The notes beneath the pieces are model-generated. The model made no database searches and was not told where the DNA came from. It saw only the letters and a list, made by a program, of their open reading frames with translations. From Thioclava nitratireducens (GTDB lineage Bacteria > Pseudomonadota > Alphaproteobacteria > Rhodobacterales > Rhodobacteraceae), in NCBI RefSeq assembly GCF_001940525.2, contig NZ_CP019437.1, positions 463,501 through 527,500 on the forward strand: 64,000 nucleotides of DNA, in the 5' to 3' direction. Numbering within the stretch: position 1 is the first letter of the stretch; each line of letters opens with the position of its first letter. Made by a program: the position numbers and the translations under genes. Positions 1,033-15,757 of the stretch are shown here, piece by piece.

Positions 1033-1057
1033 AACGTGCGCATTTCACGAAAGTTCC
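1033..1057 (-). promoter_or_regulatory. EcfG (general stress sigma) promoter for the DUF1328 gene
   Basis: On the minus strand GGAAC (1057-1053) is followed by 16 bases and then CGTT (1036-1033). This is an exact match to the known alphaproteobacterial EcfG consensus GGAAC-N16/17-CGTT, in the correct orientation for the DUF1328 gene. Confidence 0.88.
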
Positions 1058-1081
1058 ATTACCCTGGGTCAGTGATTCCGA

Positions 1082-1106
1082 GGAACATCCAACGCTTTCC
1101 GGCGTT
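1082..1106 (+). promoter_or_regulatory. EcfG promoter for the PLDc_N gene
   Basis: GGAAC (1082-1086), 16 bases, CGTT (1103-1106). It points toward the ATG at 1149 and is divergent from the EcfG promoter 25 bp to its left. Confidence 0.88.
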
Positions 1107-1148
1107 TGGGGCGCGATTCATGAGCTCACGAAAAAGGGAGATGGCGAC

Positions 1149-1343
1149 ATGGAAATGAATATGACTGGCCTCGGTGGCTTTTGGGGTATCGTCCTACTGG
1201 CACTCGATATCTGGGCGCTCGTTTCGATCATCGGGTCGAATTCCAGCACCGGGAAGAAAGTGCTCTGGGCGCTTCTTGTCTTCTTCCTGCCTCTGATCGG
1301 TTTCCTGATCTGGCTGGTGGCCGGGCCGCGCGCTTCGAAATGA
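1149..1343 (+). CDS. PLDc_N-domain small membrane protein
   Basis: This is a 64-residue protein with two transmembrane helices (roughly 10-28 and 38-58), joined by a short polar loop containing NSSTGKK and ending GPRASK. This matches the PLDc_N domain normally found at the N-terminus of cardiolipin synthases, here standing alone as in many bacterial stress proteins. The ATG at 1149 has AAGGGAG 8 bases upstream. An exact EcfG promoter lies 43 bp upstream, so it is likely a general stress gene of the envelope. The stand-alone domain has no catalytic HKD motif, so it is not an enzyme. Confidence 0.82.
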   Translation: MEMNMTGLGGFWGIVLLALDIWALVSIIGSNSSTGKKVLWALLVFFLPLIGFLIWLVAGPRASK

Positions 1344-1377
1344 CGAAATCGGGGGTGGTGGAGGCAGCGGCCGTCAC

Positions 1378-1402
1378 GGAACCGCATTCCGCAACCCGCG
1401 TT
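1378..1402 (+). promoter_or_regulatory. EcfG promoter for the holin-like/DUF3618 operon
   Basis: GGAAC (1378-1382), 16 bases, CGTT (1399-1402), exact consensus. It starts 34 bp after the PLDc_N stop and ends 50 bp before the ATG at 1453. Confidence 0.88.
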
Positions 1403-1452
1403 GGAACCACAGAAATCGCGGCGAGAAGTCGCGACATGTTTGGGAGAGGTCG

Positions 1453-1872
1453 ATGAATTACCACGATACCGAGAATTCTGACGGCCACGAAGGCCGCGGG
1501 ACGGTGAGCGATTTGCTGAACCGCGTGATCGAGCAAACGCGCGAGATCGCACGGACCGAAGCAGAATTGGTGCGCGCTGAAGCGGCCCACCGGGCTGGTC
1601 TGGCACGCAATGCCGCGATTCTCGGTGCGGTCGCCCTGGTTTTCGCCCTCGGCGCGATCTTCCCCCTGACGCAATCCGCCATCTACGGGCTGGAATGGGC
1701 CGGCCTCGATCGGGGCCCCGCGACGCTGATCGTCGGCGCGGTGCTACTGATCCTCGCCATCCTCGCGGCGCTGATCGCCGCGTCGAAGCTGCGCAAAGTG
1801 TCGAGCCCGCCCACCCGTCTCAAGGAAAACCTGTCTGCTGACGCGCAGGCGCTAAAGGAGAGCTTCAAATGA
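1453..1872 (+). CDS. Phage holin superfamily III / YqjE-like membrane protein
   Basis: This is a 139-residue protein. The first 55 residues are a charged amphipathic helix (around SDLLNRVIEQTREIARTEAE), followed by two transmembrane helices at about 55-75 and 92-112 and a basic cytoplasmic tail. This matches the YqjE/actinobacterial holin-X family, which despite its name is usually chromosomal, non-lytic and stress-linked. GGGAGAGG lies just before the ATG. Its stop overlaps the next start (ATGA at 1869-1872), so it is translationally coupled to the DUF3618 gene. The pair parallels the E. coli yqjD-yqjE arrangement of membrane and ribosome-associated stress proteins (inference). Confidence 0.8.
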   Translation: MNYHDTENSDGHEGRGTVSDLLNRVIEQTREIARTEAELVRAEAAHRAGLARNAAILGAVALVFALGAIFPLTQSAIYGLEWAGLDRGPATLIVGAVLLILAILAALIAASKLRKVSSPPTRLKENLSADAQALKESFK

Positions 1873-3092
1873 CCGAGAAGAGAACCATTCAGGACATCGA
1901 GAACCGACTGCGCCAAGACCGCGCCGATCTCGCATCGACGCTCGGCGATCTGACCGCGCGTATCGCGCCGGATTACCTCTCCGAGCAGGTGTCGCAGGCC
2001 GTGCGCGATTACGCCGCGCCTGCCGCCCGCAGCGCCGAACAGGCCGTGCGCAAGAATCCGGTGGCCTTCGCCCTCGCCGGCGCCGGTATCGCATGGTTCC
2101 TGCTGCGCCAGCGCAACTCGGAGAGCATCGAGGAAGAAGATCTGGTGGCCGATGCCGATCCGCTCGTGATGCCGAGCGACGCGGGTGCCGACGGCTGGAT
2201 CGACGAGATCGATACGCTGCGCCATGACGCCTCGGTCCGTCTCGAAGATCTCGAAGCCGAGCAGCGCAGCTCGACCGACAAGGCGCGCGACTTCGTCAAG
2301 GAGCGCTCCGAGGTGATGCAGAAATTCGCGAGCGACCTGCGCAACACGCTGTCCTCGGGTCTGAGCGACCTCAACGAGGATGCGCGCGATCGCGTGGTGC
2401 GGGCCCGCGAAAGAGCCTATTCCGCCCGGATTCGCCTGCAGGACGGGGCGACCCATGCCGGGTCGACCAGCAAGCAGATGGTCAAGGATCACCCGCTGAT
2501 CGCTGCCGCCATCGGCTTCGCCGTCGGGGCCGCGATCTTCAACGCGGTGCCCAAGCCGGACGTCAATGTCAGCCGCCGCAGCTTCGGGCCGCGCGCCAAC
2601 CGCCTGTTCAACGAGGCAGAGCGTCTGTACCGCGACGAGAAGCGTCGTGCGGGCAAGGTGGCCGACCAGTTCACCGATGAACTGAAGCGGACCGCCCGCT
2701 CGGTGATGAGCTCGGCCGGTGACGAGGCGCGCAGCGCCGCACGCGATTTCGGCGATCAGGCGATGGCTGCCGGAGAGCAGCTGATCGACCGCCTCTCGCG
2801 CCAGTTGGCTGAGGAAGCCAATCGCGCGCTGCGCGATGTCGGTCAGTCGCTGCAGAAAGGCGAAGACGAGGTCCGCGCCGGGGCGCAAGAAGCCAAGGAT
2901 GCCGCGCGGGCAAAAGCCGAGGATGTGGCGTCCAAGGCCGAGGCGAAGACCCACGAAGCGGCCGAGAAGGTGAAGGCGAACCATTCTTCGTCCTCTTCGT
3001 CGAGCACCTCGTCGACTGGTTCCGGCTCGTCCGGCGCCGGCTCGACCGGCGGGGACAGCGCGTCGTCGTCGAGTTCGAAGGCCACCCACTGA
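1869..3092 (+). CDS. DUF3618-domain stress-associated protein
   Basis: This is a 407-residue protein. Residues 1-45 carry the DUF3618 pattern (DIENRLRQDRADLASTLGDL). A hydrophobic segment is visible at about 65-78 and a second, more glycine-rich one near 213-227. The remainder is a long, highly charged helical region rich in Ala, Glu, Lys and Arg, ending in a striking low-complexity tail of about 35 residues of mostly Ser, Thr and Gly. It is coupled by ATGA to the holin-like gene and shares its EcfG promoter. The architecture suggests a membrane-anchored coiled-coil stress protein. Its molecular function is unknown. Confidence 0.78.
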   Translation: MTEKRTIQDIENRLRQDRADLASTLGDLTARIAPDYLSEQVSQAVRDYAAPAARSAEQAVRKNPVAFALAGAGIAWFLLRQRNSESIEEEDLVADADPLVMPSDAGADGWIDEIDTLRHDASVRLEDLEAEQRSSTDKARDFVKERSEVMQKFASDLRNTLSSGLSDLNEDARDRVVRARERAYSARIRLQDGATHAGSTSKQMVKDHPLIAAAIGFAVGAAIFNAVPKPDVNVSRRSFGPRANRLFNEAERLYRDEKRRAGKVADQFTDELKRTARSVMSSAGDEARSAARDFGDQAMAAGEQLIDRLSRQLAEEANRALRDVGQSLQKGEDEVRAGAQEAKDAARAKAEDVASKAEAKTHEAAEKVKANHSSSSSSSTSSTGSGSSGAGSTGGDSASSSSSKATH

Positions 3093-3111
3093 ACGGTGGG
3101 GCAGTATGCAG

Positions 3112-3140
3112 AAAGGCCGGGCATCGCGCCCGGCCTTTTT
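3112..3140 (+). terminator. Rho-independent terminator of the DUF3618 operon
   Basis: The 11-bp stem AAAGGCCGGGC (3112-3122) with GCCCGGCCTTT (3128-3138) has a 5-base loop and runs into TTTTT. Confidence 0.9.
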
Positions 3141-3183
3141 CTTTGCGCGGTTATCGGTGGGGATGCGAGACCGACACCCAAAA

Positions 3184-3220
3184 GTAAACCGGCGCCGCGA
3201 TCTCTACGGCGCCGGTTTAC
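3184..3220 (-). terminator. Terminator of the csbD gene
   Basis: This is a perfect 14-bp stem (3184-3197 with 3207-3220). Read on the minus strand it is followed by TTTTGGG, 36 bp after the CsbD stop codon. Confidence 0.85.
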
Positions 3221-3255
3221 ATGTTTTACGCTGAAACAGGGTCTGTTTCTGAAGA

Positions 3256-3453
3256 TCAGATCGAGCTGGACCAGGTGTCGACTTCGCGCTCGGCGTCTTC
3301 CTTGGTCTTACCGTATTTCTTCTGGATCAGGCCGACCATCTGCTCGCGATGACCTGCGGCCTCCTGAAGTTCGTCGTCGGTCAATTCGCCCCAGTTCTCG
3401 CGGGCCTTGCCCTTCATTTCGTTCCAGTTGCCTTTTATTTGATCCCAATTCAT
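3256..3453 (-). CDS. CsbD-family stress protein
   Basis: This is a 65-residue soluble protein starting MNWDQIKGNWNEMKGKAREN, the hallmark CsbD sequence, and ending with the usual acidic helix. CsbD proteins are small, highly induced general stress proteins with no assigned biochemical role. The ATG at 3453 is preceded by AAAGGAG. The longer frame upstream carries no CsbD similarity and would cross the promoter. It has its own exact EcfG promoter (3502-3526, minus strand) and its own terminator, so it is monocistronic. Confidence 0.93.
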   Translation of the reverse strand: MNWDQIKGNWNEMKGKARENWGELTDDELQEAAGHREQMVGLIQKKYGKTKEDAEREVDTWSSSI

Positions 3454-3501
3454 GGCGTCGCTCCTTTCAAGATGAAGACGCGGGTTCAGGCGTCTCTCAT
3501 C

Positions 3502-3526
3502 AACGTTTCGCCGGGGGCGATGTTCC
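3502..3526 (-). promoter_or_regulatory. EcfG promoter for csbD
   Basis: On the minus strand GGAAC (3526-3522), 16 bases, CGTT (3505-3502), exact consensus. It is divergent from the EcfG promoter at 3550-3575 that serves the next gene. Confidence 0.88.
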
Positions 3527-3549
3527 TCTGCACGGCAGCACAAAAACAG

Positions 3550-3575
3550 GGAACCCGCTATCGTCCGACGGCGTT
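3550..3575 (+). promoter_or_regulatory. EcfG promoter for the AI-2E-type permease
   Basis: GGAAC (3550-3554), 17 bases, CGTT (3572-3575). Transcription would begin near 3582, which excludes the upstream in-frame ATGs and supports the start at 3610. Confidence 0.87.
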
Positions 3576-3609
3576 AGATCGCGAAACCAAGAGGGAAGTA
3601 ATTCTCGAA

Positions 3610-4671
3610 ATGCATCGCCTGGAGACCCTGTCGCGCATCGCCATGATCGTGATCGCTGTAATCGCTGTCGTGGCTGCGCTGAGCCAGGTGGAAAGCCTAC
3701 TCGCGCCCGTCGTGCTCGCGCTCGTCGTGGGGATCGTGCTTTCACCGATTTCCGATGCATGGGAGAAAAGAGGTCTGTCGCCTGTCTGGGGGGCGCTTAC
3801 CTCGCTCGTGATCTCGCTGATGATCGCCGTGCTGCTGGTCCTCGTGATCCAGCCGGTCGTCTCCGAACTGATGCGACAGGCGCCGAAGGTGATGGACGAC
3901 ATGCGCTCCACCATCATTCATATGCGCCACATGTTCCAAGGCATCCAGGACGCCTCGAAAGAGGTCAGCGACGCGATCACGCCGGCGACGGATGGCGCCA
4001 AGGATAGCGGCGGCAATGGCGACAAGAGCGCCGTGCCGGATGCCAAGGATCTCGTGATGCTGGCGCCGTCCATCATCGCACAGGCGCTGATCTATGTCGG
4101 GGCGCTGTTCTTCTTCCAGCTTTCGCGCGGCGAAATCTACAACTGGATCGCGAAGCACCTCGCGGAGCCTTCGAGCCGCGGCGCTACGGCTGCACGGTTG
4201 CGCAAGGCGGAGACACGGGTGTCGCGCTACTTCCTCACGATCACAGTGGTCAATGGCGGTCTCGGGCTGGCGGTGGGCGTCGCGATGCAGCTGATCGGGC
4301 TCCCGAACGCGCCGCTTTGGGGGCTTGTGGCCTTCCTCATCAACTACATCCTTTATCTCGGCCCCGCGGCGCTCATCATCGCGCTAGGATTCGCAGGCGT
4401 GGCCACGTTCGACGGGGTGCGCGTGATCCTGCCGCCGCTGATCTATATCGTGCTGAACGCGACCGAAGCCCAGTTCGTGACCCCTGCCGCGATCGGGCGG
4501 CAGATGCGCCTCAATCCGCTTCTGGTGTTCCTGTCGCTGACCTTCGGGATCTGGCTCTGGGGGCCGCTGGGCGGGATCGTGGCGATCCCGCTGCTGCTCT
4601 GGGCGCTGGTGCTGACGAACAGCTTGCCCGACCCGAAATCCGAGCCGGAGCAGAAGCTCGAAGCCGACTGA
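3610..4671 (+). CDS. AI-2E family transporter (PerM/TqsA-like permease)
   Basis: This is a 353-residue integral membrane protein. A hairpin of helices lies at the N-terminus (about 5-45), then a helix at about 60-82, a soluble segment (~85-160) and a block of C-terminal helices including PNAPLWGLVAFLINYILYLG and the conserved GPLGGIVAIPLLL, as in the AI-2E transporter superfamily. Members move varied small molecules or ions, so no substrate should be assumed. The frame is open much further upstream, but the EcfG promoter at 3550-3575 places the transcript start downstream of those ATGs, and GAGGGA precedes 3610. It converges on the phospholipase D gene, with 22 bp between stops. Confidence 0.85.
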   Translation: MHRLETLSRIAMIVIAVIAVVAALSQVESLLAPVVLALVVGIVLSPISDAWEKRGLSPVWGALTSLVISLMIAVLLVLVIQPVVSELMRQAPKVMDDMRSTIIHMRHMFQGIQDASKEVSDAITPATDGAKDSGGNGDKSAVPDAKDLVMLAPSIIAQALIYVGALFFFQLSRGEIYNWIAKHLAEPSSRGATAARLRKAETRVSRYFLTITVVNGGLGLAVGVAMQLIGLPNAPLWGLVAFLINYILYLGPAALIIALGFAGVATFDGVRVILPPLIYIVLNATEAQFVTPAAIGRQMRLNPLLVFLSLTFGIWLWGPLGGIVAIPLLLWALVLTNSLPDPKSEPEQKLEAD

Positions 4672-4693
4672 ACCGGCGGGTCGCGGCGACGGA

Positions 4694-6268
4694 TCAGACC
4701 ATTTCTTCCGGAATGAACGGCACTTTGCGCGCGATCTTGCGCGCGGCCTCCACGTCATAGGGGAGCACGAAGCCCTCGCGATCCTCGGGGGCTTTCGTGG
4801 CATTCGCGCGGGCCAGCTCCGCCCAGGCAGAGACTGCGCGCGTCGGGTCGAAGAAGGCCTCTTCGGGCGCGGGCGGCAGCCAATGGCGCATCAGGCGGCG
4901 ACGCATGGCCGGGATGCCGTCGTTGCGGCGCAGATAGACACCCGCCTCGCTGTCCCAATGCAGCGACCGCGCGTTGAGATTGGCCGAGGTGATCAGCGCG
5001 GCGTCCTCGTCGAAAATCGAGACCTTCGCATGGACGTAGATCAGCGGCGCGCCGCCGGTGCGCAGCGCCCCCTCATCACCGGGGTCGGCAAGGCAGGGCT
5101 CTGCCGGGCAGCCGATGAACAGACGATTGCCGAAGGCTTCGCGGAGCGTATCCAGCGCGCGCACCTGAAGATATTCGCCATAGCGCACGTCGCTGGTCGG
5201 GCGATCGGCCAGCATCAGCGTTTCGGGCGCGGCGGGCAGGATCAGGATCAGGTTGAGATTGGGGTTCTCCCGCGCCGCCCGGGCCAAGTGGTGCGCCAGA
5301 GTGCGCGAGCGGAAGAACTGGCTCTCGAGATAGATCAGCTTCTGCGCCCGCGCGATCAGCATCTCATGCGCGTTCTCGATCTCGGTCCGATAGAACTTCG
5401 GCCCGATGCGGAAGGTCGCGAATTTGCGCCGCTGCGACAGGGTGCGCAGCAGGCGGCGCGGCGGTTTGGCGCGGTTTTCGCCGGAGCAGCTTTCGTGGAA
5501 GCTCTCGAGATGGGCCTTCGCCTCGGCGACGACGGGGCCGGTCATCATGAGCTGCACATCGTGCCATGTCATCTCGCCGTCGCGCTCGTGCACGGGGGTG
5601 TCGAAGCGCCGGTTGTCGAGATCCAGCCCGCCGATATAGAGCTTCTTGTCGTCGAACACGGCGAGCTTCTGGTGGTGTGTCGCCGGGAACAGCTTCGGCG
5701 GCGTCGCGACGAACTTGCGGCGGATTTTGCAATCCGATCCGGCCTCAAGATATTCCCGCAGCCCCGGCATGTCGCGCATCGCGGTCAGCCGCTTGGCCTC
5801 GTCCATGTCGTTGAGCCACGACGTGTGCTGCCCGAGCTTGTGATAGACATAGGGCCAGAAGATCGTACGCGGCACGATGCCCGATTGCGCCGGGTGCATC
5901 AGCGCACGCAATTTCAGCTTCGCCTTGGGACCGCCCGCCAGTTCGCGCGCGGCGCAGAACATGCGGATCGACGACCATGTCATCCGGTGAAGATCCGGCT
6001 TTGCGCAGGGGTCGAAATCGGTCAGGTCGATCTGTATCCTCACGCCGCGCTTCAGCATGTGAATGATCAGGTCGAACCACGTCTTGCCGATCGCGCGCCC
6101 GCGGTCGGATTTCAGTGTGGTGTTGAGGTCGAAGACGCGGAATGAGCAATGAATGGAATGACGCGCGTCGAGAAAGGCATCCTCGAGCACGGGATAGGCC
6201 TCTGCTGCGGTCAAAAGCAGCTTTACGCGGCTCTCGGCGTGAACTCCGGCTTGTTTAAGACGTTCCAT
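4694..6268 (-). CDS. Phospholipase D-family phosphatidyltransferase
   Basis: This is a 524-residue protein with two complete HKD motifs: HQKLAVFD (His199, Lys201, Asp206) followed by the IGGLDLDNR strand, and VHAKVSIFD (His413, Lys415, Asp420) followed by ITSANLNARSLHWDSE. Both are required for the two-half active site of PLD enzymes, including cardiolipin synthases. There is no N-terminal membrane anchor, so it is a soluble or peripheral enzyme of the class often annotated as cardiolipin synthase-like. It follows the stress kinase on the same strand after 61 bp and could be co-transcribed. I found no EcfG motif of its own. Confidence 0.85.
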   Translation of the reverse strand: MERLKQAGVHAESRVKLLLTAAEAYPVLEDAFLDARHSIHCSFRVFDLNTTLKSDRGRAIGKTWFDLIIHMLKRGVRIQIDLTDFDPCAKPDLHRMTWSSIRMFCAARELAGGPKAKLKLRALMHPAQSGIVPRTIFWPYVYHKLGQHTSWLNDMDEAKRLTAMRDMPGLREYLEAGSDCKIRRKFVATPPKLFPATHHQKLAVFDDKKLYIGGLDLDNRRFDTPVHERDGEMTWHDVQLMMTGPVVAEAKAHLESFHESCSGENRAKPPRRLLRTLSQRRKFATFRIGPKFYRTEIENAHEMLIARAQKLIYLESQFFRSRTLAHHLARAARENPNLNLILILPAAPETLMLADRPTSDVRYGEYLQVRALDTLREAFGNRLFIGCPAEPCLADPGDEGALRTGGAPLIYVHAKVSIFDEDAALITSANLNARSLHWDSEAGVYLRRNDGIPAMRRRLMRHWLPPAPEEAFFDPTRAVSAWAELARANATKAPEDREGFVLPYDVEAARKIARKVPFIPEEMV

Positions 6269-6329
6269 GCGGCTCGTTGGGTTGAACGGCCGCGAGGGTG
6301 ACCTGTGGTCGCCGCGGCTGGTATCTCAT

Positions 6330-8180
6330 TCAATGGCTCTCATCAGAAACTGTTTCGGGCGTCTCGGATTTCAAGCGTTCTTCGTGACGCAATTCGCTCT
6401 CGACGAGGGGGCGCAGTGCGAACGCGGCGCTGAGCATATACTCGTCTTCGTCGGTCTGGATCTCGATCGAGCCGCCCAGCTGCTGCACGAAGGCGTTCAG
6501 CAGTTGCGAACCGAGCCCGGTGCCTTCGACGGCCTCCAGCGGCGGGGCATCCCTATCGACGGTATTGCGCACGCAGAGCCGCGCCTGCATCCCTTCGAGC
6601 CTGCGCAGCGAGATGTCGAGTTGCGGTTTGCCATCGCGGGCAGAGGCGTATTTCATCGCGTTTGTCATCGCTTCGGTCAGCAGAAGCGAGAGGGGCACAG
6701 CCTGATCGGGGGTCAGGTGGATGTCGTCGATATTGCAATCGACCGCGATATGGCGGCCCGGCCCGGTCGCGAGTCGGGTGATCTGGCGCACGATGTCGGG
6801 CAGCAGTTCCTGCGCCTGAATGTCGGTGAGGCCTGAGGTCTGGTAGAGTCCGCGGTGGATCGTGGCGAGCGAGATGACCCGCTCCTGGAGCGATTTCATA
6901 AGCCCCTTGGCTTCGGGCGTGCGCGCCTGCCGCATCTGCATGTTGATGATCGAGGCGATGAGCTGGAGGTTGTTCTTCACCCGATGGTGGACCTCGCGGA
7001 GCAGCACTTCCTTGTGGTGCACCATGTCCTCGAGCTCGGCCTCGTCATGCAGGATGGTTTCTGTCATCCGGTCATAGGCCTCGGCGAGGTCGCGGATTTC
7101 CGACGGTGCGGTCGACAGATTGAGATTGCCCACGATCCGGCTGCCGGTGGCGAAGCTGGAGATCGCGCTCGACAGTTTGCGGACATGGCCGATCACCAGC
7201 TTCTGCATTGCGAAGTAGGCGACCAGCAGGCTCGCCATCCACATCAGGGCCGGGAACAGCACAGGCGAAATATCAGCGAAGGGACTAAGCGCCGAGGCCG
7301 CCTGTGCGGGCCAGCTGCCAAGCGCGTAGAGCTGGTTGGGCACCAGTTCGACGACGGAATAGACCCGTTCTATTCCGAGGTTGGAGTCCCCCGAGAAAGT
7401 CACCGCGCCATTGCCCGCCAGCAGTTTCAGAGAGCGGTCCACCGGCAGGTGCGACTGGGTGTTCGAAAGCCCGTCCGAGGAGGTCAGGATCGTGCCTTCG
7501 CGGTCGAAGGTCATGATCACCAGCGGCCGGTCATCGGCGAGCTTCGGTCCATCCTTGGCCAGCGAGAGCGAGGAGTGGCTCATCGAGATCGCGATGATCC
7601 CGATATGATCGCCCGCCGCGTTGTAGACCGGATGGGCCACGCCGAGCACGGAGGTACCCGACACCGGCGCATCGCGGTTGACGTAGAAGCTGGTGCGGTC
7701 CGCAGTCAGCATCTTCTCGAAGACGTCCTGGTTCTTGAAGTCGTAACTCTTGCCCGAATTCGAGCAGGTCATCTTGCCGCTGTCTGGGATGAAGGAGACG
7801 AGCGAGAACTCCGGAAAGGCCCCTGAGATCTGCCGCATCCAGTTCGAGCAGGCCTCGGCATTGCCCACGAGCGGCTGGACCGTGCTGGCGAGGACGCGCG
7901 CGGCGTCCTGCGCGTGCTGAATCACCCGCGTCTCACCGGCGACGGCGCGCATCGTCTCGCCCATGAGGGCGGCTTCGGACCGCGCCTGCGCTTCGCGCAC
8001 TACCGAGGTCGATTGCAGCACGGCGATGATCAGCAGAGGGAAGAGAGCAACCGCCAACATGAAGGCGAGGCGCACGCCAAGCCCGTCGAAAAACGGAATG
8101 ACGCCCCGTTTCCTGGCTCGGAACGGGGCGTGATCACTGTAGTGCTCGTCGTCTGCCGCTTTCGCGGCTTCCGAATTCAT
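6330..8180 (-). CDS. HWE/HisKA_2-type sensor histidine kinase of the general stress response
   Basis: This is a 616-residue membrane kinase. A transmembrane helix (about 37-56) precedes a periplasmic sensor region of about 250 residues (Cache-like by layout), then a second helix (~306-325), a HAMP-like linker and a HisKA_2 dimerisation domain with REVHHRVKNNLQLIASI (His398/His399). The HATPase domain follows, with N box LLLTEAMTNAMKYA and G box GTGLGSQLL. Kinases of this family phosphorylate PhyR. Its start overlaps the ecfG stop (ATGA, 8177-8180), placing it in a nepR-ecfG-kinase operon. The periplasmic ligand is unknown. Confidence 0.9.
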   Translation of the reverse strand: MNSEAAKAADDEHYSDHAPFRARKRGVIPFFDGLGVRLAFMLAVALFPLLIIAVLQSTSVVREAQARSEAALMGETMRAVAGETRVIQHAQDAARVLASTVQPLVGNAEACSNWMRQISGAFPEFSLVSFIPDSGKMTCSNSGKSYDFKNQDVFEKMLTADRTSFYVNRDAPVSGTSVLGVAHPVYNAAGDHIGIIAISMSHSSLSLAKDGPKLADDRPLVIMTFDREGTILTSSDGLSNTQSHLPVDRSLKLLAGNGAVTFSGDSNLGIERVYSVVELVPNQLYALGSWPAQAASALSPFADISPVLFPALMWMASLLVAYFAMQKLVIGHVRKLSSAISSFATGSRIVGNLNLSTAPSEIRDLAEAYDRMTETILHDEAELEDMVHHKEVLLREVHHRVKNNLQLIASIINMQMRQARTPEAKGLMKSLQERVISLATIHRGLYQTSGLTDIQAQELLPDIVRQITRLATGPGRHIAVDCNIDDIHLTPDQAVPLSLLLTEAMTNAMKYASARDGKPQLDISLRRLEGMQARLCVRNTVDRDAPPLEAVEGTGLGSQLLNAFVQQLGGSIEIQTDEDEYMLSAAFALRPLVESELRHEERLKSETPETVSDESH

Positions 8181-8782
8181 GCGGCGGCAACTCCGGATTT
8201 GCCCATCACGGCGAGGGAATTTCGATCCGTGCCGGACAGGATATCTTCACCTTCCTCGAGCCCGAGCATTTCCGCAAGCCGGGCGCGTGCGCGGTTGGCG
8301 CGGCTTTTCACCGTGCCCACGGCGACGCCCATCATGCCGGCAGCTTCTTCGTAAGAAAAGCCAGATGCGCCGACGAGGGTCAGCACCTCGCGATGTTCCG
8401 GGCTGAGCTGATCGAAGGCCTCGACGAAATCATTCATCGCGAGACGTCCGTCATGCGCAGGTTTCTCATAGAGCGATGCGGCGTGAATCCCTTCAGGGTC
8501 AGCGACCTCGCGCTTGCGCTTGCGCCGGTCCGAATAGAAGGTGTTGCGCAGGATCGTGAAGAGCCATGCGCGCAGATTGGTGCCGCGTTCGAACTTTTCG
8601 ATATTCGACCACGCCTTGACGATCGTGTCCTGCACGAGGTCGTCGGCCGAGGCCGAGTTCCGGGTCAGCGACAGCGCGAAGGCACGCAGGGCCCCGAGGT
8701 GATCGGGCAGCTCCTCACGCGGATCGCGGGCTTCGCTGGAGGCATTGGCTTTGGACGAATTGGTGTTGGAGGGCGAAGTCAT
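8177..8782 (-). CDS. ecfG: EcfG-family general stress sigma factor
   Basis: This is a 201-residue ECF sigma factor. Region 2 is at about 30-95, with the core motif SADDLVQDTIVKAWSNIEKF and RAWLFTILRNTFYSDRRKRK. Region 4 follows at ~115-170, with LTLVGASGFSYEEAAGMMGV and GTVKSRANRARARL. The alphaproteobacterial EcfG class recognises GGAAC-N16/17-CGTT and is sequestered by NepR. The start overlaps the nepR stop (ATGA at 8779-8782) and the stop overlaps the kinase start. An exact EcfG promoter lies upstream of nepR, so the operon is autoregulated. Seven such promoters in this window give it clear local targets. Confidence 0.95.
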   Translation of the reverse strand: MTSPSNTNSSKANASSEARDPREELPDHLGALRAFALSLTRNSASADDLVQDTIVKAWSNIEKFERGTNLRAWLFTILRNTFYSDRRKRKREVADPEGIHAASLYEKPAHDGRLAMNDFVEAFDQLSPEHREVLTLVGASGFSYEEAAGMMGVAVGTVKSRANRARARLAEMLGLEEGEDILSGTDRNSLAVMGKSGVAAA

Positions 8783-8937
8783 TTTCCGCCCTCCTTCGCC
8801 TTGAGTTGCGCCAGCAAATCCTTGAACCGATCCGGCACTTCTTCCTGAAGCGCCTCCTCGTAAACCTTCTTCAGGTTTTGATTGATCTGGTCCCTGATAC
8901 TGGACTTAGGCTTTTCGTCTGCCATATCACTATACAT
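8779..8937 (-). CDS. nepR: NepR anti-sigma factor
   Basis: This is a short protein of 52 residues (or 48 if the ATG at 8925 is used) containing INQNLKKVYEEALQEEVPDR, the conserved two-helix NepR core that binds EcfG in unstressed cells and phosphorylated PhyR under stress. Start choice is uncertain: 8937 has GTGGGA about 10 bases upstream and 8925 has CCGGA. The long frame further upstream would run through the promoter and is rejected. It is the first gene of nepR-ecfG-kinase, coupled to ecfG by ATGA, and diverges from phyR. Confidence 0.9.
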   Translation of the reverse strand: MYSDMADEKPKSSIRDQINQNLKKVYEEALQEEVPDRFKDLLAQLKAKEGGK

Positions 8938-8964
8938 CCGGTTTCGATCCCACTCATTTTGCAC

Positions 8965-8990
8965 GGAACCGAACGCGGGGCCAGAGAGTT
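8965..8990 (+). promoter_or_regulatory. Near-consensus EcfG promoter for phyR
   Basis: GGAAC (8965-8969), 17 bases, AGTT (8987-8990), one mismatch in the -10 element. It physically overlaps the minus-strand EcfG promoter, so the two probably compete or are co-occupied. The start codon of phyR is 33 bases downstream. Confidence 0.65.
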
Positions 8991-8997
8991 TGGTTCC
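8972..8997 (-). promoter_or_regulatory. EcfG promoter for the nepR-ecfG-kinase operon
   Basis: On the minus strand GGAAC (8997-8993), 17 bases, CGTT (8975-8972), exact consensus. This is the positive autoregulation typical of the GSR core. Confidence 0.9.
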
Positions 8998-9022
8998 CGA
9001 AAAAACGCAAAAGGGGGTTTTC

Positions 9023-9820
9023 ATGTCCGAAGACATCGCCGGCACCATCGGAGCCAACCTGCCGTATTTACGGCGTTATGCCCGAGCGCTTACCGGCAGC
9101 CAGGACAGCGGCGACCGTTACGCCGCGGCTACGCTCGAGGCCATACTCGAAGATACGTCGCCTTTCGAGAACAACGATCCGAAGCTCGCATTGTTCCACG
9201 CCTTCCACCTGGTCTGGGCCTCCGCGGGGGCGCCGCTGGGGGAGCCGGACAACCGGCTTTCGGCCCGCGCGCAGGACCACATGTCGACGCTGACGCCGAA
9301 CACCCGTGAGGCGCTTCTGCTGCATTCGATCGAAGGGTTCCGCATCGAGGAAATCGGCACGATCATGCAGGTCGATGCCGAAGAGGCGAAAGAACTGATC
9401 GACATCGCGATCCGCGAGATGGAAACGTCCGTCGCGGGTAAAGTGATGATCATCGAAGACGAAGCGATCATCGCAATGGATATTCGCGCCATCGTCGAGG
9501 ATATGGGCCACCAGATCACCGGCATCGCCCGCACCCGCACCGAGGCTGTGGAGCTTGCCGCGACCGACAAACCGGACCTGATCCTCGCCGACATCCAGCT
9601 GGCGGACAATTCCTCGGGGATCGATGCGGTGAACGACATTCTCGCGCAGTTCGGCAACGAATTGCCCGTGGTCTTCATCACCGCCTTTCCGGAGCGCCTG
9701 CTGACCGGCGAGCGGCCCGAACCGGCCTTCCTGATCACCAAGCCCTACACCGAGAGCCAGGTGCAGTCGGCGGTCAGCCAGGCGATGTTCTTCTCCTCGA
9801 CGGAGACGCTCGCGGCGTAA
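9023..9820 (+). CDS. phyR: PhyR anti-anti-sigma response regulator
   Basis: This is a 265-residue protein with the diagnostic inverted layout: an N-terminal sigma-like domain (1-135; starting MSEDIAGTIGANLPYLRRYA) and a C-terminal receiver. The receiver shows acidic residues EDE (145-147), phospho-acceptor Asp190 in LILADIQL, Thr220 and Lys240, with the FAT GUY-type segment VVFITAFPERL. On phosphorylation PhyR binds NepR and frees EcfG. The ATG at 9023 follows AAGGGGG. It diverges from nepR over an 85-bp shared promoter region and has its own terminator, so it is monocistronic. Confidence 0.96.
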   Translation: MSEDIAGTIGANLPYLRRYARALTGSQDSGDRYAAATLEAILEDTSPFENNDPKLALFHAFHLVWASAGAPLGEPDNRLSARAQDHMSTLTPNTREALLLHSIEGFRIEEIGTIMQVDAEEAKELIDIAIREMETSVAGKVMIIEDEAIIAMDIRAIVEDMGHQITGIARTRTEAVELAATDKPDLILADIQLADNSSGIDAVNDILAQFGNELPVVFITAFPERLLTGERPEPAFLITKPYTESQVQSAVSQAMFFSSTETLAA

Positions 9821-9846
9821 CGGCCCGTTCAAAGCTATTTCTCGAG

Positions 9847-9879
9847 AAAGGCGGCCCCGGCAGACGGGGTCGCCTTTTT
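9847..9879 (+). terminator. Rho-independent terminator of phyR
   Basis: AGGCGGCCCCG (9849-9859) pairs with CGGGGTCGCCT (9865-9875, one mismatch) and runs into TTTTT, 27 bp after the phyR stop. Confidence 0.85.
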
Positions 9880-10035
9880 CCTTTGCCGCATGTGCCTTTG
9901 CGCAGGCGATTGCGCAGGCGATGCCCGCCGCAACGCACCAGAATGTGAAGTCGCGCTCCTGCAACCCGATCTCGCCCGTGCCGGTTCTTCCTCTGAGACA
10001 GACTGACGAAACCGTTCACAACGAAGGAGCCGCAC

Positions 10036-11040
10036 ATGACGAATATCGTGATTACCGGCGCATCCGCGGGCGTGGGGCGCGCCGTCGCTCGCCGCTTCGC
10101 TGCCAAGGGCAACCGCATCACCCTGATAGCCCGCAACAAGGCGCGGCTCGAGACGGCGGCGCAGGAAATTCGCGAGAAGGGCGGCGAGGCGCTCGTGCAG
10201 CCGCTCGACGTCGCAGATGCCGATGCGGTCGAGGCCGCGGCGGTCGCCGCTGAAAGTGCCTTCGGTCCGATCGACGTCTGGATCAACGTCGCGATGGTGA
10301 CGGTACTCTCGCCGGTGTCGCAGATGACCCCGGAAGAGTATCGCCGCGTGACCGAAGTGACTTATCTCGGCACGGTCAACGGCACGCTCTCTGCGCTGAA
10401 GCGGTTCCGCCAGCAGGGCTGGGGCACGATTGTGCAGACTGGCTCGGCGCTCGCCTATCGTGCGGTGCCGCTGCAGTCGGCCTATTGCGCGGCGAAGGCG
10501 GCCATCGTGGGCTTCACCGACAGCCTGCGCACCGAGCTGATCCACGAGAATTCCGACGTGAAGATCACCGTCTGCCATCTGCCGGCGGTCAATACGCCGC
10601 AATTCGACTGGGCCCGCAGCAAGCTGCCGAACCGCCCGCGCCCGGTCGCGCCGGTCTTCGAGCCGGAGCTGATCGCAGACGGCATCCATCACGCGGCCTA
10701 CCATCCGAAGCGGGAATACTGGCTGGGCTTCTCGGCGGTGAAGGCTATCCTGTCGGAGAAGCTCGCGCCGGAACTGGGCGATCTCTACCTCGCGCGCACG
10801 GCGGTGTCCGGGCAGCAGACGGGCGAGGCAGCCGATCCTGATCGGGCCGACAATCTCTATGACAGCGTCGACGGTGACTGGGCAGCGCGGGGGCGCTTCT
10901 CCGACGAGGCGAGCGACAGTTCCCCCGCGATGGCGCTGTCCGAGCATGGCGGCTCGCGGCTTGTCGCGGGCGGCGGCGCGGCGCTCGTCGCCGGGCTGAT
11001 GCTGGGAGCGATCTTCGCGGTCTCCCGTCAGCGAGCCTGA
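10036..11040 (+). CDS. SDR-family NAD(P)-dependent oxidoreductase with C-terminal membrane helix
   Basis: This is a 334-residue protein. The cofactor loop TGASAGVG is at residues 7-14 and the catalytic Ser137, Tyr150 and Lys154 (YCAAK) are all present; the structural NAG is NVA (84-86). The core SDR domain ends near 250. A polar linker and a hydrophobic helix (about 310-328) follow, ending QRA, an unusual tail suggesting inner-membrane anchoring. AAGGAG precedes the ATG. The substrate is unknown. It lies beside phyR but after its terminator; no GGAAC motif is present in the 215-bp gap, so GSR membership is by neighbourhood only. Confidence 0.85.
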   Translation: MTNIVITGASAGVGRAVARRFAAKGNRITLIARNKARLETAAQEIREKGGEALVQPLDVADADAVEAAAVAAESAFGPIDVWINVAMVTVLSPVSQMTPEEYRRVTEVTYLGTVNGTLSALKRFRQQGWGTIVQTGSALAYRAVPLQSAYCAAKAAIVGFTDSLRTELIHENSDVKITVCHLPAVNTPQFDWARSKLPNRPRPVAPVFEPELIADGIHHAAYHPKREYWLGFSAVKAILSEKLAPELGDLYLARTAVSGQQTGEAADPDRADNLYDSVDGDWAARGRFSDEASDSSPAMALSEHGGSRLVAGGGAALVAGLMLGAIFAVSRQRA

Positions 11041-11061
11041 CGATCGCGACAAGGAAACGAG

Positions 11062-11090
11062 AAACGCGCGCCCGGGTGGCGCGCGTTTTT
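11062..11090. terminator. Bidirectional terminator between the SDR and GH15 genes
   Basis: The perfect 11-bp stem AAACGCGCGCC (11062-11072) with GGCGCGCGTTT (11078-11088) is followed by TTTTT on the plus strand. It lies between two convergent genes. Confidence 0.85.
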
Positions 11091-11114
11091 GTTCTTGTGT
11101 AGGTGGCAGCGAGA

Positions 11115-13013
11115 TCAGTCCTTCACCGCGCCCCGATATGCGGTAATCGCCGCGATCATCCCGGCATGGGACAGCCCTTGCGGGAAGTTTCCAAGCTGGG
11201 CGCCGCTCTCCGGGTCGTGCTCTTCCGACATCAGTCCGAGATCGGTCGTGGCCTTCAGCATCCCCTCGATCTGGGTCCGCGCGTCATCAAGCCGCCCGGC
11301 CCTCACGAGGTAGTCGGCGGCCCAGAACCCGCAGACGTTGAAATGGCCCTCGACGCCGGGCATCCCGTCTTCCTGCGCGTCGTAGCGCCGCAGATGAACG
11401 CCCGTGCCAAGCCGCTCACGGATGGCAGTGTAGGTCGCCGCCATCTTCGGGTCGTCTGCGGGGATCACCCCGATACGCGGCATCAGCAGAACGCTCGAAT
11501 CGAGCCATTCCTCGCCGATCGCACCGGTGAAAGCGCCGATCTCCTCGTTCCAGGCCTCTTCCCGGATCAGGGCTTCGATCGCGGCGCGCTCCGCCTTCCA
11601 CAGCCGCGTGTCGGCATTGATCACGCCGTTCTCGGCCAGCGAGATCACCCCATCCAGCGCGCCCCAGCACATCGCCTTGGAATAAGTGTGGTGTCGGCGC
11701 GGATTGGGCATTTCCCAGATTCCGTTATCGGGCCGCGTCCATTGCGAGACCACGACATCGGCGAAATTCGCGAGCCGGATGCCTTCGCCCGGATGCAGCT
11801 CGCCGCCGGCCTCGACATAGGCGCGCGCGGCCATGATCATCGAGCCATAGGCGTCGAGTTGCAGCTGTGTCGCCGCGCCGTTACCCAGCTGCACCGGGGC
11901 CGAGCGGCGATAACCCTCGAGCGTCTGCAAGCTCGAGATCGAGACGTTGCTGTCGCCCCGCACCGTGTAGAGCGTCCCAAGTTCCGGCGCCGTTTCGCGT
12001 GTTGCTGCCATCAGCCAGCGGAAGAAGGCGTCGGCCTCGTCGGTGAGGCCCTGATCGAGAAAGGCGTGGAGCACGAAATAGGCGTCGCGAAGCCAGCAAT
12101 AGCGGTAGTCGTAATTGCGGATGCCGCCGATCACTTCCGGCAGCCCCATCGTCGGCGAGGCGATCACTGCGCCGGTGGGGGCGTGGATCAGAAGCTGCAG
12201 CGCCAGTAGCGAGCGTTTGAGCGCTCCGGAAAAAGGCCCGTCGCCGAAATCCGTCTTGGACTGCCGCTTGCGCCAAGCCTCACGAGTTGAGGCGAGCGCC
12301 TCTTGCGCCGCCTGCATTCCGCCGACATGGCCGTGCCCGCCTTGCGTCACGGTGAGGGTAACATAGCCGCGTTCCCCGGTGGCGAGGGTACCGCGCCCGT
12401 TCAACCGGCCGGAGCCTTCGATCTCCAGTTCTATCGAGCTGTCGATCAGGATGATGTCGCCGTCTTGGGTAAACTGCCAGCTGCCCGGGCCGCGCCGGAT
12501 GAACTCGGGTGTGCTCAGCGCGTAGTTGCAGCGCGGTGCGATGCAGATTTCGACGTCTGCCGCGCCTTCGGTGGCCTCGAAAAGACGCACGACCGAGCGC
12601 CCGAAGCTCGCCGCTTCTTCGAGCGAGTCCGGCAGGTTCATGAAGTCGGTGACCTTGAGGCCGCCCGCCTCGGACGCGTGGGTGGTGGTCAGGATCGGGC
12701 CGTAATCTTCATAGACGCGTCGGGCGGTCGTCTGACGATCTGGATCCGGCACCGGACCGACATAGAAGGTCCCGCCGCGAAACTGGTCGAGCAGCCGCCC
12801 GAAGAGCGGGTCGCCGTCGAAATCCGGCCCGCAGAACCAGTCGATCGCGCCGTCCCGGGCCACCAGCGCCGCCGTGCGCGTATCCCCGATCACCGCGTAA
12901 TCGGCAATCGGGAGATAGCCGCGCCGGCCCTCCAGAAAGCGCAGCGGCGGGCTGTTCGGATCGGGCTGGGTCTTCGAGGATGTGCCGGAATCGGGATCGG
13001 TGCGTTCGGTCAT
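11115..13013 (-). CDS. GH15-family glucoamylase/trehalase-like hydrolase
   Basis: This is a 632-residue protein. The N-terminal beta-sandwich region (about 30-250) opens with YLPIADYAVIGDTRTAALVA. The (alpha/alpha)6 barrel follows, with YCWLRD (305-310), general acid GIWEM (Glu434) and general base in SEEHDP (Glu597/598), the two GH15 catalytic glutamates. Bacterial members hydrolyse alpha-glucans or trehalose; the substrate cannot be fixed from sequence. It has no signal peptide, so it acts in the cytoplasm. An exact EcfG promoter lies 70 bp upstream, so it is stress induced, possibly to mobilise glycogen or recycle trehalose (inference). Confidence 0.85.
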   Translation of the reverse strand: MTERTDPDSGTSSKTQPDPNSPPLRFLEGRRGYLPIADYAVIGDTRTAALVARDGAIDWFCGPDFDGDPLFGRLLDQFRGGTFYVGPVPDPDRQTTARRVYEDYGPILTTTHASEAGGLKVTDFMNLPDSLEEAASFGRSVVRLFEATEGAADVEICIAPRCNYALSTPEFIRRGPGSWQFTQDGDIILIDSSIELEIEGSGRLNGRGTLATGERGYVTLTVTQGGHGHVGGMQAAQEALASTREAWRKRQSKTDFGDGPFSGALKRSLLALQLLIHAPTGAVIASPTMGLPEVIGGIRNYDYRYCWLRDAYFVLHAFLDQGLTDEADAFFRWLMAATRETAPELGTLYTVRGDSNVSISSLQTLEGYRRSAPVQLGNGAATQLQLDAYGSMIMAARAYVEAGGELHPGEGIRLANFADVVVSQWTRPDNGIWEMPNPRRHHTYSKAMCWGALDGVISLAENGVINADTRLWKAERAAIEALIREEAWNEEIGAFTGAIGEEWLDSSVLLMPRIGVIPADDPKMAATYTAIRERLGTGVHLRRYDAQEDGMPGVEGHFNVCGFWAADYLVRAGRLDDARTQIEGMLKATTDLGLMSEEHDPESGAQLGNFPQGLSHAGMIAAITAYRGAVKD

Positions 13014-13082
13014 GCAATGCCTGTCCTTTGACGGTTTTCCGGGCGTCGCCCCGGAGATATATCGCGCCCCTCTCAGGGATCG

Positions 13083-13107
13083 AACGGACGCGCCGCCCCC
13101 CAGTTCC
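13083..13107 (-). promoter_or_regulatory. EcfG promoter for the GH15 gene
   Basis: On the minus strand GGAAC (13107-13103), 16 bases, CGTT (13086-13083), exact consensus. It lies between the HPP stop and the GH15 start. Confidence 0.88.
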
Positions 13108-13765: not shown

Positions 13766-14470
13766 TCAGGACGCTTTGACCAATGCCGGCATCCGCGCGA
13801 AGCTCATCGAGATGTGGCCGCGCCTCATATGGCCGAGCGCGTCGAGATCGCCGAGCCGCAGCGCGCGCAGCATGTCGCGCAGCTCGTTGTTGTAGATCTC
13901 GATTTCCTGCATCAGGTCGATCTGCGAAGCCGTGACCTGCTGTAGCCAGATCCGCGCCGTGCGGAAATACAGCGCCGCCGACATCGTCCGGAGCGGTGCA
14001 TTCGCGGTCAGCTCCAACAAGGCGAGGAAGGTGTCGCGGTCGAGCTCCGAGAAGGCCCTGGCGGTGGGTGCATCGACCAGTTCGCGGCCGCGCTCCTGAA
14101 AGGTGACGAAACGCGCGATCAGCGCGGCGCTGGGCGGCACCGGATCGAGGCTCGTCTGCAGCACGGCGAGTTCGCGCCGCAGCCGGAAGACCTGCCCAAG
14201 CTCGGTGTAATCAACATCGGTGACGAAGGTGCCGACCCCATGCATGGAGCGCAGCATCCCCTCGTCCTCGAGCCGCGCCAGCACCCGACGCAGCGGAGTC
14301 CGCGAGATGCCGAATTCTGACGCGAGCGCGGTCTCTGACAAGCGCATTCCCGGCGGGTAATCGAGCAGGCAGATGCGGCTGCGAATTTCGTCGTGAATGA
14401 GATCGTAGCGGTCGCGGGCGCGGAGCCGCTCCGGATCGGTTTGCCGGGGGATCATGGAGATGTCGTCCAT
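13766..14470 (-). CDS. GntR-family (FadR/FCD) transcriptional regulator
   Basis: This is a 234-residue protein. The N-terminal winged helix-turn-helix is at about 20-88 (MRLSETALASEFGISRTPLR then a GVGTFVTD wing). The C-terminal all-helical FCD ligand domain follows, with acidic and histidine metal-binding candidates (Asp148, His217, His222 region). It diverges from the Ehu-like transporter operon, so it most likely represses that operon in response to the transported compound or a breakdown product. A pair of inverted TGTTGTGyAC elements in the intergenic region is a candidate operator. Confidence 0.86.
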   Translation of the reverse strand: MDDISMIPRQTDPERLRARDRYDLIHDEIRSRICLLDYPPGMRLSETALASEFGISRTPLRRVLARLEDEGMLRSMHGVGTFVTDVDYTELGQVFRLRRELAVLQTSLDPVPPSAALIARFVTFQERGRELVDAPTARAFSELDRDTFLALLELTANAPLRTMSAALYFRTARIWLQQVTASQIDLMQEIEIYNNELRDMLRALRLGDLDALGHMRRGHISMSFARMPALVKAS

Positions 14471-14838
14471 AGAGTTCTGTCGTCTGTTCGCGCAAAGCCA
14501 TGATCGGCGGCGGAGGCGCGCAGGTCAATCCGCTTGGCCGCGTCATCCCCCAAGGGGGCGTTTCAGCCGCAGATATTGCGGAGAGCCGGGCGGCGCAATC
14601 GGCACGAAACGACGGCCTTCGGCGGAACCGGCGCACACACATGCGCGTTCAATGCTCAAAGCTCCGGCATTGGTGCACAACATATGCGTTTAGCTCTTTA
14701 TCGGCCTACGACATCTGCTTTTTGCCCCAGTATAATCAATGCGATCTGCTTGACACTCCGGAGAAACTCATAGGTGTTGTGTACATCAATCACGGGAGGC
14801 TTGGGCTTCCCGTCAACAAGAACCAACGGGAGAGACGC
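14471..14838 (+). promoter_or_regulatory. Regulatory region between the GntR gene and the Ehu-like operon
   Basis: This is 368 bp without a gene. A perfect TATAAT at 14731-14736 has a -35-like ACGACA at 14708-14713 (17-bp spacing). TGTTGTGCAC on the minus strand (14682-14673) and TGTTGTGTAC on the plus strand (14775-14784) flank the promoter and are likely GntR operator half-sites. TTGACA at 14750-14755 has no good -10 partner. The stretch from about 14640 to 14780 is richer in A+T than its surroundings. GGGAGAGACGC precedes the transporter ATG. Confidence 0.55.
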
Positions 14839-15681
14839 ATGAAATCGATCTTGAAATCTGTCGCCGCCGCCGGCATCGGCATCGCGCTGAGCGCAAGCGC
14901 CGCACTCGCTGGCCCCCTGATGGACCGTATCAATTCGGGCGAGCCGATCCGCATCGGCTTCGCGAACGAAGTTCCGTGGGCCTACCCGGGCGAAAACAAC
15001 AAGCCGCTGGGCTTCGTGAACGCCTATGTTCTGGGTGTGCTCCACGAGATGGGCTATGACAACATCACCCCCGTCGTGACCGATTGGGGCGGGTTGATCC
15101 CGGGCCTCAACGCGAACCGCTTCGACATGGTCACCGGCGGTCTCTACATCCTCAACTCGCGCTGCCAGAACGTTGCCTTCTCCGAGCCGATGGCGAAAGT
15201 CGGCGATGCGTTCATCGTGCCCAAGGGCAACCCGAAGAACCTGAACAACTACGAACAGATCGCCAAGGCTGGCGCGACCTTCGTGACGGGCGCGGGCTAT
15301 AACCAGGTGGAGTCCGCCAAGAAGGGCGGTATCCCGGATAGCAACGTGATGACCGTGCCGGGCCCGACCGAAATCCTCGCCGCCGTGAAAGCGGGCCGCG
15401 CGGATGCAGGTGGCGTGACCTACTTCACCGCGCAGAACCTTGCCGATCAATCGGACGGCGCGGTCGAGGTGTCGGACGTGAGCCAGCTGCCTGAATGGAC
15501 CCAGAACTGGGTCGGCATCGGCTTCCGCAAAGCGGATCAGGACTTCGTCGACAAGTTCAACGAAGCCCAGAAGAAGTATCTCGGTTCGGACGCGATGATG
15601 AAAGCGGTCGGCGAGTACGGCTACTCGAAAGGCAACCTGCCGGGCGACAAGACCTCGGCTGAAGTCTGCAAGATGCGCTAA
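14839..15681 (+). CDS. ehuB: Ehu-like ABC transporter periplasmic binding protein
   Basis: This is a 280-residue secreted protein with a signal peptide (1-25; hydrophobic core then SAALAGP) and a class III solute-binding fold for amino acids or compatible solutes. GLIPGLNANRFDMVTGGLYI and RCQNVAFSEPMAKVGDAFIV closely follow the ectoine-binding protein EhuB pattern, and Trp/Phe residues early in the mature chain (FANEVPWAYPGE) are suitable for a cation-pi site. It is the first gene of the transporter operon. A terminator-like hairpin directly after it would give more binding protein than membrane components. The substrate call (ectoine or a related amino acid) is by resemblance and is not certain. 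Confidence 0.75.
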   Translation: MKSILKSVAAAGIGIALSASAALAGPLMDRINSGEPIRIGFANEVPWAYPGENNKPLGFVNAYVLGVLHEMGYDNITPVVTDWGGLIPGLNANRFDMVTGGLYILNSRCQNVAFSEPMAKVGDAFIVPKGNPKNLNNYEQIAKAGATFVTGAGYNQVESAKKGGIPDSNVMTVPGPTEILAAVKAGRADAGGVTYFTAQNLADQSDGAVEVSDVSQLPEWTQNWVGIGFRKADQDFVDKFNEAQKKYLGSDAMMKAVGEYGYSKGNLPGDKTSAEVCKMR

Positions 15682-15698
15682 GCGCAAATGCTGAAGAC

Positions 15699-15730
15699 AT
15701 GGACGGGCCTGTGCATGGCCCGTCCATTTT
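15699..15730 (+). terminator. Attenuating hairpin after the binding-protein gene
   Basis: The perfect 11-bp stem ATGGACGGGCC (15699-15709) with GGCCCGTCCAT (15717-15727) is followed by TTTG. It lies between the binding protein and the permeases of the same operon, so it is probably partial. Confidence 0.8.
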
Positions 15731-15757
15731 GACATTCACCGCCGGGGCGGGACGGGA

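Follow-up and report, generated by a model that had tools for sequence, protein, structure and literature searches.

How can a stress circuit hold its parts in balance when its sigma and anti-sigma factors are encoded on one strand and its anti-anti-sigma factor on the other? This question is raised by a 64,000-nucleotide stretch of the Thioclava nitratireducens genome (C1:463501-527500 of 4.24 Mb; hereafter the window), which carries the core of the general stress response (GSR). In this response, phosphorylated PhyR binds NepR, and the sigma factor EcfG is released (PMC6599016; here and below, published work is cited from those parts of each paper that were accessible). Because over-activation of the GSR can be lethal (PMC6599016), the balance among PhyR, NepR, and EcfG matters. 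The window contains a phyR gene encoding sigma-like and receiver domains, nepR and ecfG together and divergent from phyR, and a gene for an HWE/HisKA2 kinase nearby, and family membership predicts that the same partner switch would operate in this organism.

An earlier note on this DNA had described seven matches to the EcfG-type promoter motif GGAAC-N16/17-CGTT (−35 GGAAC, −10 CGTT), which we searched for in exact form, around these regulators. Our analysis makes it quite likely that the locus is a GSR core set in a cluster of EcfG promoters, and that the promoters of nepR-ecfG and phyR are interleaved in such a way that they would serve one polymerase at a time.

The nepR and phyR promoters form one inverted repeat

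The nepR-ecfG site and a phyR-facing site with one mismatch overlap almost wholly (Table 1), forming a 33-bp element of the form GGAACC-G-AACG ... AGTT-T-GGTTCC in which each −10 nearly abuts the −35 of the other promoter. The earlier note had overlooked both the promoter facing phyR and the way in which it interlocks with that of nepR. Judged from the sequence, the two arms of the GSR seem to share one two-way promoter.

We compared this arrangement across 80 Rhodobacteraceae loci around phyR (1.46 Mb), taken as the best matches to the T. nitratireducens PhyR, which is 91-95% identical to PhyR of four named Thioclava species and 82% identical to that of Thioclava sp. SK-1. Three loci (L095, L098, and L103) had no nepR match and were dropped, leaving 77 usable nepR/phyR intergenic regions. 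All 77 contained GGAAC-N21..23-GTTCC, a pattern found in 0.03% of mononucleotide shuffles, and the element measured 31 bp in 7 regions, 32 bp in 48, and 33 bp in 22. Both sites were exact in 43 of the 77 regions, with an offset that was always −33 or −32 (17 and 26 cases, respectively). At most 0.4 bits were held by 45 of the 50 flanking columns, and the exceptions were all on the phyR side, at bases 1, 3, and 5-7. On this side, the window has an A-rich stretch after the palindrome (8998-9005), and bases 5-7 hold 0.8-1.2 bits in the relatives, possibly as initial transcribed sequence.

Across 198 genomes of the family, the exact palindrome occurred in 31, once in each, and the reversed control in none. 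The 30 of these 31 palindromes with a fetched locus all lay between nepR and phyR. A more tolerant palindrome pattern was found in 14 of 100 family genomes. In a second sample of 30 family genomes, all lacking the exact palindrome, a PhyR at E ≤1e-40 was present in 11. Such genomes supplied ten loci with nepR, L236 having been excluded for its partial PhyR and L237 because neither nepR nor ecfG was matched. Seven of the ten had a core of 31-33 bp, which in three cases was exact on both sides. The other 19 of the 30 genomes gave no PhyR match at the same threshold, and the GSR core looks patchy in the family. A class-wide search returned the exact palindrome in one of 289 genomes, at a locus (L118) that we rejected as a PhyR core, its match to PhyR being confined to the receiver domain at 25%. 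Exact patterns proved too strict at this level, and loci were compared instead.

Squeezed promoters or an operator as alternatives

One alternative holds that the seven sites are EcfG promoters and that the nepR/phyR overlap has no function of its own, two needed promoters having been squeezed into a short region. This possibility, which we consider doubtful, draws on the usual layout of the GSR core, divergent nepR-ecfG and phyR units that both have EcfG promoters (PMC4814048), and on the length of many nepR/phyR intergenic regions, only about 100-140 bp. Squeezing fits poorly with an element that stays at 31-33 bp in all 77 regions, including roomy ones of 174 and 199 bp, and with the remaining divergent EcfG pairs of these loci, most of which are free of overlap, with gaps ranging from 2 to 100 bp. 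Among them, a single unassigned pair overlaps (−28), and CsbD/AI-2E shows a spacing of 23-24 bp in four cases. Besides the 43 interleaved cases, the nepR/phyR pairs include four with gaps of 38-63 bp.

The near-perfect inverted repeat could instead be the operator of a dimeric regulator, which we regard as improbable. Most regions contain an exact −35 and −10 with N16/17 (61 of 77 on the nepR-facing side and 53 of 77 on the phyR-facing side), the genes on either side belong to the EcfG circuit, and no genome of the family sample has more than one copy of the exact palindrome. In addition, the length of the repeat varies from 31 to 33 bp, a variation that the operator of a dimer would rarely tolerate.

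A proposed model for control of the PhyR:NepR ratio

From the sequence, we infer that the sites start transcription, that occupancy of the shared element is exclusive, and that the shared promoter sets the PhyR:NepR ratio. In the model that we propose, PhyR would be phosphorylated under stress, with the HWE kinase (6330-8180) as the probable enzyme, and would then bind NepR and free EcfG. EcfG-RNA polymerase would read at least eight −35/−10 pairs within 12 kb, the seven listed sites and the imperfect one before phyR. Transcription would be expected to start 6-8 nt after the −10, and because each predicted start falls in or just beyond the −35 of the other promoter, the 33-bp element would be occupied by one polymerase at a time, in either orientation. 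Output would be split, one share going to the anti-sigma/sigma operon and the other to the anti-anti-sigma gene, and this division would set the PhyR:NepR ratio. The phyR-facing −10 is AGTT and not CGTT, which should favor nepR-ecfG in this organism. A tentative and, in our judgment, rather unlikely extension of this model is that a single interleaved ECF promoter of 31-33 bp, open to EcfG polymerase from one side or the other at a time, is a ratio-setting device of the Rhodobacteraceae GSR in general, that drift of the two −10s tunes the trade-off between species, and that some other families reach a similar end through back-to-back −35s spaced 8 bp apart.

Several observations weigh against a shared ratio-setting promoter. 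In Rhodobacter sphaeroides, singlet oxygen, superoxide, and diamide raised phyR mRNA 2-3 fold but membrane stress did not, and ecfG mRNA increased only with membrane stress (PMC5830050). These data do not fit a simple shared switch or co-induction, and the wording on the nepR-ecfG start in the same paper is ambiguous. Our 80-locus sample, being composed of the best PhyR matches, is skewed to close relatives. The exactness of the −10 is uneven in the 77 regions: 43 regions had two exact −10s and 6 had none, and where a single −10 was exact it faced nepR in 18 regions and phyR in 10. Finally, 167 of the 198 family genomes do not have the exact palindrome, many perhaps lacking PhyR, and the 31-33 bp core is missing from three of the ten nepR/phyR loci from palindrome-lacking genomes.

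The interleaved, spacing-locked nepR/phyR promoter is the part of the locus that deserves an experiment. Lying between opposing arms of the circuit, this two-way promoter is a concrete, mutable element with which ratio control can be tested.

Position and conservation of the seven sites

All seven sites described in the earlier note lie at the positions and on the strands it had reported. The −35 and −10 with N16/17 are exact in seven of seven, and all are sense and 34-69 bp before starts. The list was incomplete, since the window contains nine exact matches, compared with a mean of 0.91 in dinucleotide shuffles (largest, 5 in 100). The assertion that every copy is intergenic and 28-70 bp before a start codon is therefore correct for the seven and wrong for the nine. 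Neither additional match was accepted as an EcfG promoter: 9173-9197 lies inside phyR, and 14624-14649, which is 189 bp from the next start, is missing in four Thioclava relatives.

In the 80 loci of relatives, we found 356 exact matches and 35 matches to the reversed pattern. We scored conservation as an exact sense match within 250 bp upstream of an ortholog, with reversed and complemented patterns as controls, which gave at most two matches per gene. Sense sites were present upstream of 31 of 43 orthologs of the DUF1328 gene, 18 of 26 for PLDc_N, 5 of 7 for the holin-like gene, 21 of 27 for CsbD, 21 of 29 for AI-2E, 61 of 77 for nepR, and 56 of 79 for phyR. For all of these except phyR, the sites lay 12-154 bp before the gene. 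Few or no sites preceded orthologs of the kinase gene (2 of 76), the DUF3618 gene (0 of 15 directly before the gene), or the SDR gene (0 of 3). Antisense matches were frequent in the same upstream windows (DUF1328, 22; PLDc_N, 11; holin-like, 2; CsbD, 13; AI-2E, 12; nepR, 53; phyR, 61), as expected because of the divergent gene pairs.

The earlier note had put forward the AI-2E permease and the GH15 protein as candidate members of the regulon. The first proposal is borne out, in that the proportion of AI-2E orthologs near phyR with a site supports this permease as a conserved predicted EcfG target. The GH15 proposal survives within Thioclava and not beyond. The GH15 site is exact in four of four close Thioclava orthologs (88-89% identity) and in none of nine distant GH15 matches, whose alignments begin inside the query so that the upstream regions are approximate, and one of which (L117) is a short fragment. 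No scored GH15 ortholog was present in the 80 phyR loci. Motif density in these loci was high towards ecfG, where bins −8 to −3 kb had 143 true versus 10 reversed matches, and much lower towards phyR, where bins +3 to +9 had 21 versus 8; GH15 lies on the latter, poorer side. It is the weakest single case of the seven. Taken together, position and conservation make the seven sites look like real EcfG promoters, for GH15 only within Thioclava.

The phospholipase D-like gene was rejected as an island target: an exact site precedes 16 of 44 orthologs, but neither an exact nor a one-mismatch site lies upstream of it here. The SDR and HPP genes likewise had no exact or one-mismatch site upstream. 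In relatives, the protein at L049:10846-11340 and six related proteins, Dps-like by eye, recur near phyR downstream of an exact site, and further unnamed protein families also recur near phyR.

Most promoter-like sites in the genome lie outside the island

The earlier note had proposed measuring the enrichment of the motif genome-wide. The raw counts did not support enrichment (78 exact matches versus 64 for the reversed pattern), and we dropped them as evidence. Since these counts were barely above background, we used position instead. Genes were called with one crude gene finder, used alike for true and reversed matches, and proteins were assigned by Pfam. Of the true matches, 37 of 78 fell in no called gene and had a same-strand start 10-200 bp downstream, whereas this was so for 1 of 30 reversed matches, those 30 of the 64 with loci being the ones classified. 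Random placement in part of the window gave 3.3% promoter-like sites. The gene finder misplaced the starts at island sites 3502, 3550, and 8972, which the genome script consequently missed; with these three added by hand, 40 of 78 sites are promoter-like. A chance origin of matches to a nine-base pattern in a GC-rich genome agrees with the close raw counts and probably explains 9173-9197 and 14624-14649, but position, conservation, and clustering leave it next to no credibility for the seven as a group.

The seven sites fall within 12,075 bp where 0.11 would be expected (Poisson P about 4.5e-11, uncorrected for the post hoc choice of the interval). The regulators and much of their regulon had been placed in this one 12-kb island. 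The clustering stands, and the second part of the claim does not: at least 32 promoter-like exact sites (32 of the 37) lie outside the window, and the seven make up about 7 of the 40. The island is a real cluster, yet most of the predicted regulon is dispersed.

Outside the window, 36 genes lie within 300 bp of a site, 31 with a Pfam match and 5 without. Among their products are a catalase, GT20 (OtsA), OsmC, topoisomerase IB, a TPP enzyme, hemerythrin, DJ-1/PfpI, Pyrid_ox_like, DUF3008, DUF1269, DUF308, glycine-zipper, Ysc84, entericidin, BCCT, PAS, and receiver proteins. The topoisomerase IB site is only 8 bp from the gene start assigned by the script, and some of the linked genes, phoH and the LepA gene at 297 bp among them, seem unspecific. 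A second motif-rich stretch, C1:1132991-1236653, holds 13 of the 78 exact matches in 104 kb, and cytochrome c, TPP enzyme, catalase, deaminase, Ysc84, OtsA, and topoisomerase IB genes lie downstream of some of them. Among four AI-2E paralogs in the genome, island or other, only the island copy has an exact site before it. The paralog at C1:1231568-1232470 (L239) is close to and divergent from an otsA-like gene and has GGAAC-N16-GGTT, with its first base 62 bp before the called start.

Genes of the island

The genes and sites of the island are collected in Table 1. From their family names, we take the DUF1328, PLDc_N, holin-like, and AI-2E proteins to be membrane proteins. The statement that envelope proteins dominate among the targets holds for these four and does not extend to CsbD, GH15, or nepR. 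The holin-like and DUF3618 genes would be carried on one transcript, because they overlap by 4 bp. The HWE kinase is likely to be the PhyR kinase. An HPP protein was also identified in the locus by Pfam. These assignments tie small, probably membrane proteins and the AI-2E permease to the GSR, a link that would fit the membrane-stress phenotype of the R. sphaeroides phyR mutant (PMC5830050).

Beyond the island, a gene for a GntR-type regulator is divergent from genes for a solute-binding protein and permease (13766-16423), possibly a system for compatible-solute uptake that may resemble Ehu.

Table 1. Features of the stress island and its surroundings (window positions)
Feature	Position	Strand	Remarks
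Inverted repeat formed by two interleaved promoters, 33 bp	8965..8997	.	Sole tolerant-palindrome match in this genome
EcfG-type promoter, DUF1328 gene	1033..1057	-	Exact, N16; CGTT-to-start 61
EcfG-type promoter, PLDc_N gene	1082..1106	+	Exact; CGTT-to-start 42
EcfG-type promoter, holin-like/DUF3618 pair	1378..1402	+	Exact; CGTT-to-start 50 (holin-like)
EcfG-type promoter, csbD	3502..3526	-	Exact; CGTT-to-start 48
EcfG-type promoter, AI-2E family permease	3550..3575	+	Exact; CGTT-to-start 34
EcfG-type promoter, nepR-ecfG(-kinase)	8972..8997	-	Exact; CGTT-to-start 34 or 46 (two possible in-frame starts)
EcfG-type promoter, phyR-facing	8965..8990	+	One mismatch, GGAAC-N17-AGTT
EcfG-type promoter, GH15 gene	13083..13107	-	Exact; CGTT-to-start 69
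Exact match inside phyR	9173..9197	-	Antisense; probably chance
Exact match, intergenic	14624..14649	+	189 bp before solute-binding protein gene; probably chance
DUF1328 small protein, 57 aa	798..971	-	PF07043 E 1.6e-16
PLDc_N small protein, 64 aa	1149..1343	+	PF13396 E 4.9e-13
Phage_holin_3_6-like protein	1453..1872	+	PF07332 E 9.5e-21
DUF3618 protein	1869..3092	+	PF12277 E 5.4e-4, below cut-off; 4-bp overlap with holin-like gene
CsbD-like protein	3256..3453	-	PF05532 E 4.5e-22
AI-2E family membrane protein	3610..4671	+	PF01594 E 9.2e-40
Phospholipase D-like protein	4694..6268	-	Pfam
HisKA_2/HWE histidine kinase	6330..8180	-	PF07568 E 7.8e-23, PF07536; weak Cache match; 4-bp overlap with ecfG
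ecfG, ECF sigma factor of the GSR	8177..8782	-	PF04542, PF08281
nepR, anti-sigma factor	8779..8925	-	PF18557 E 5.4e-16; further in-frame start ends at 8937
phyR, sigma-like and receiver, anti-anti-sigma factor	9023..9820	+	PF22029, PF22233, PF00072
GH15 protein, trehalase-like N-terminal domain	11115..13013	-	PF00723 E 2.3e-56, PF19291 E 8.4e-11

Comparison with known GSR systems and symmetric promoters

The alphaproteobacterial GSR core comprises the same genes, usually in divergent order and with EcfG promoters on both units; Methylobacterium extorquens is named as an exception (PMC4814048). The same GGAAC-N16-CGTT motif is used in Rhizobium etli (PMC3892343), and rsiA1 and rsiB1 of Sinorhizobium meliloti are both RpoE2-dependent (PMC3616915). 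The claim of the earlier note is mostly a sound annotation: the system was already known, and the family has been little studied. The predicted regulon shares csbD, catalases, ecnAB, and osmC with the EcfG regulon of Sphingopyxis granuli (PMC7083833) and topoisomerase IB and 'Glycosidases' with that of Sphingomonas melonis Fr1 (PMC6599016). Considering the EcfG-dependent S. melonis gene, which is labelled only as 'Glycosidases' (PMC6599016), GH15 is perhaps not a novel type of target. The main texts of PMC6599016 and PMC7083833 do not contain the term 'AI-2E', a negative that does not extend to most other names of the family.

What sets the Rhodobacteraceae apart from the general GSR core is the interlocking of both promoters within a single inverted repeat. 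In a small sample of 31 PhyR loci from other families, including three second PhyR copies, ecfG was divergent from phyR in 15. The 31-33 bp core was present in 2 of the 31 (L209 and L283, of one family), with only the nepR side exact. In five other loci (L198, L201, L203, L273, and L276), the −35s stand back to back as GTTCC-N8-GGAAC with an 8-bp gap; one of these five also shows a gap of 34, and a sixth back-to-back locus shows 14.

Within the family, R. sphaeroides RSP_1271-1274 has the same gene order, and its phyR and ecfG mRNAs differ in following different stresses (PMC5830050). The accessible parts of that paper do not describe the promoter geometry of the phyR locus. Two named Cereibacter species related to it, C. 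johrii (L039) and C. ovatus (L042), have the element with both sides exact. We found no description of nepR/phyR interleaving in the accessible parts of the open-access literature that we searched, although a prior description is possible.

Bidirectional promoters based on symmetry, in which one DNA element is transcribed both ways, occur in bacteria. Such symmetric promoters share or overlap the −10s of the housekeeping sigma factor. In the Rhodobacteraceae element, by comparison, two full ECF −35/−10 pairs interlock, both exact in 43 of 77 regions, and bidirectional activity is predicted.

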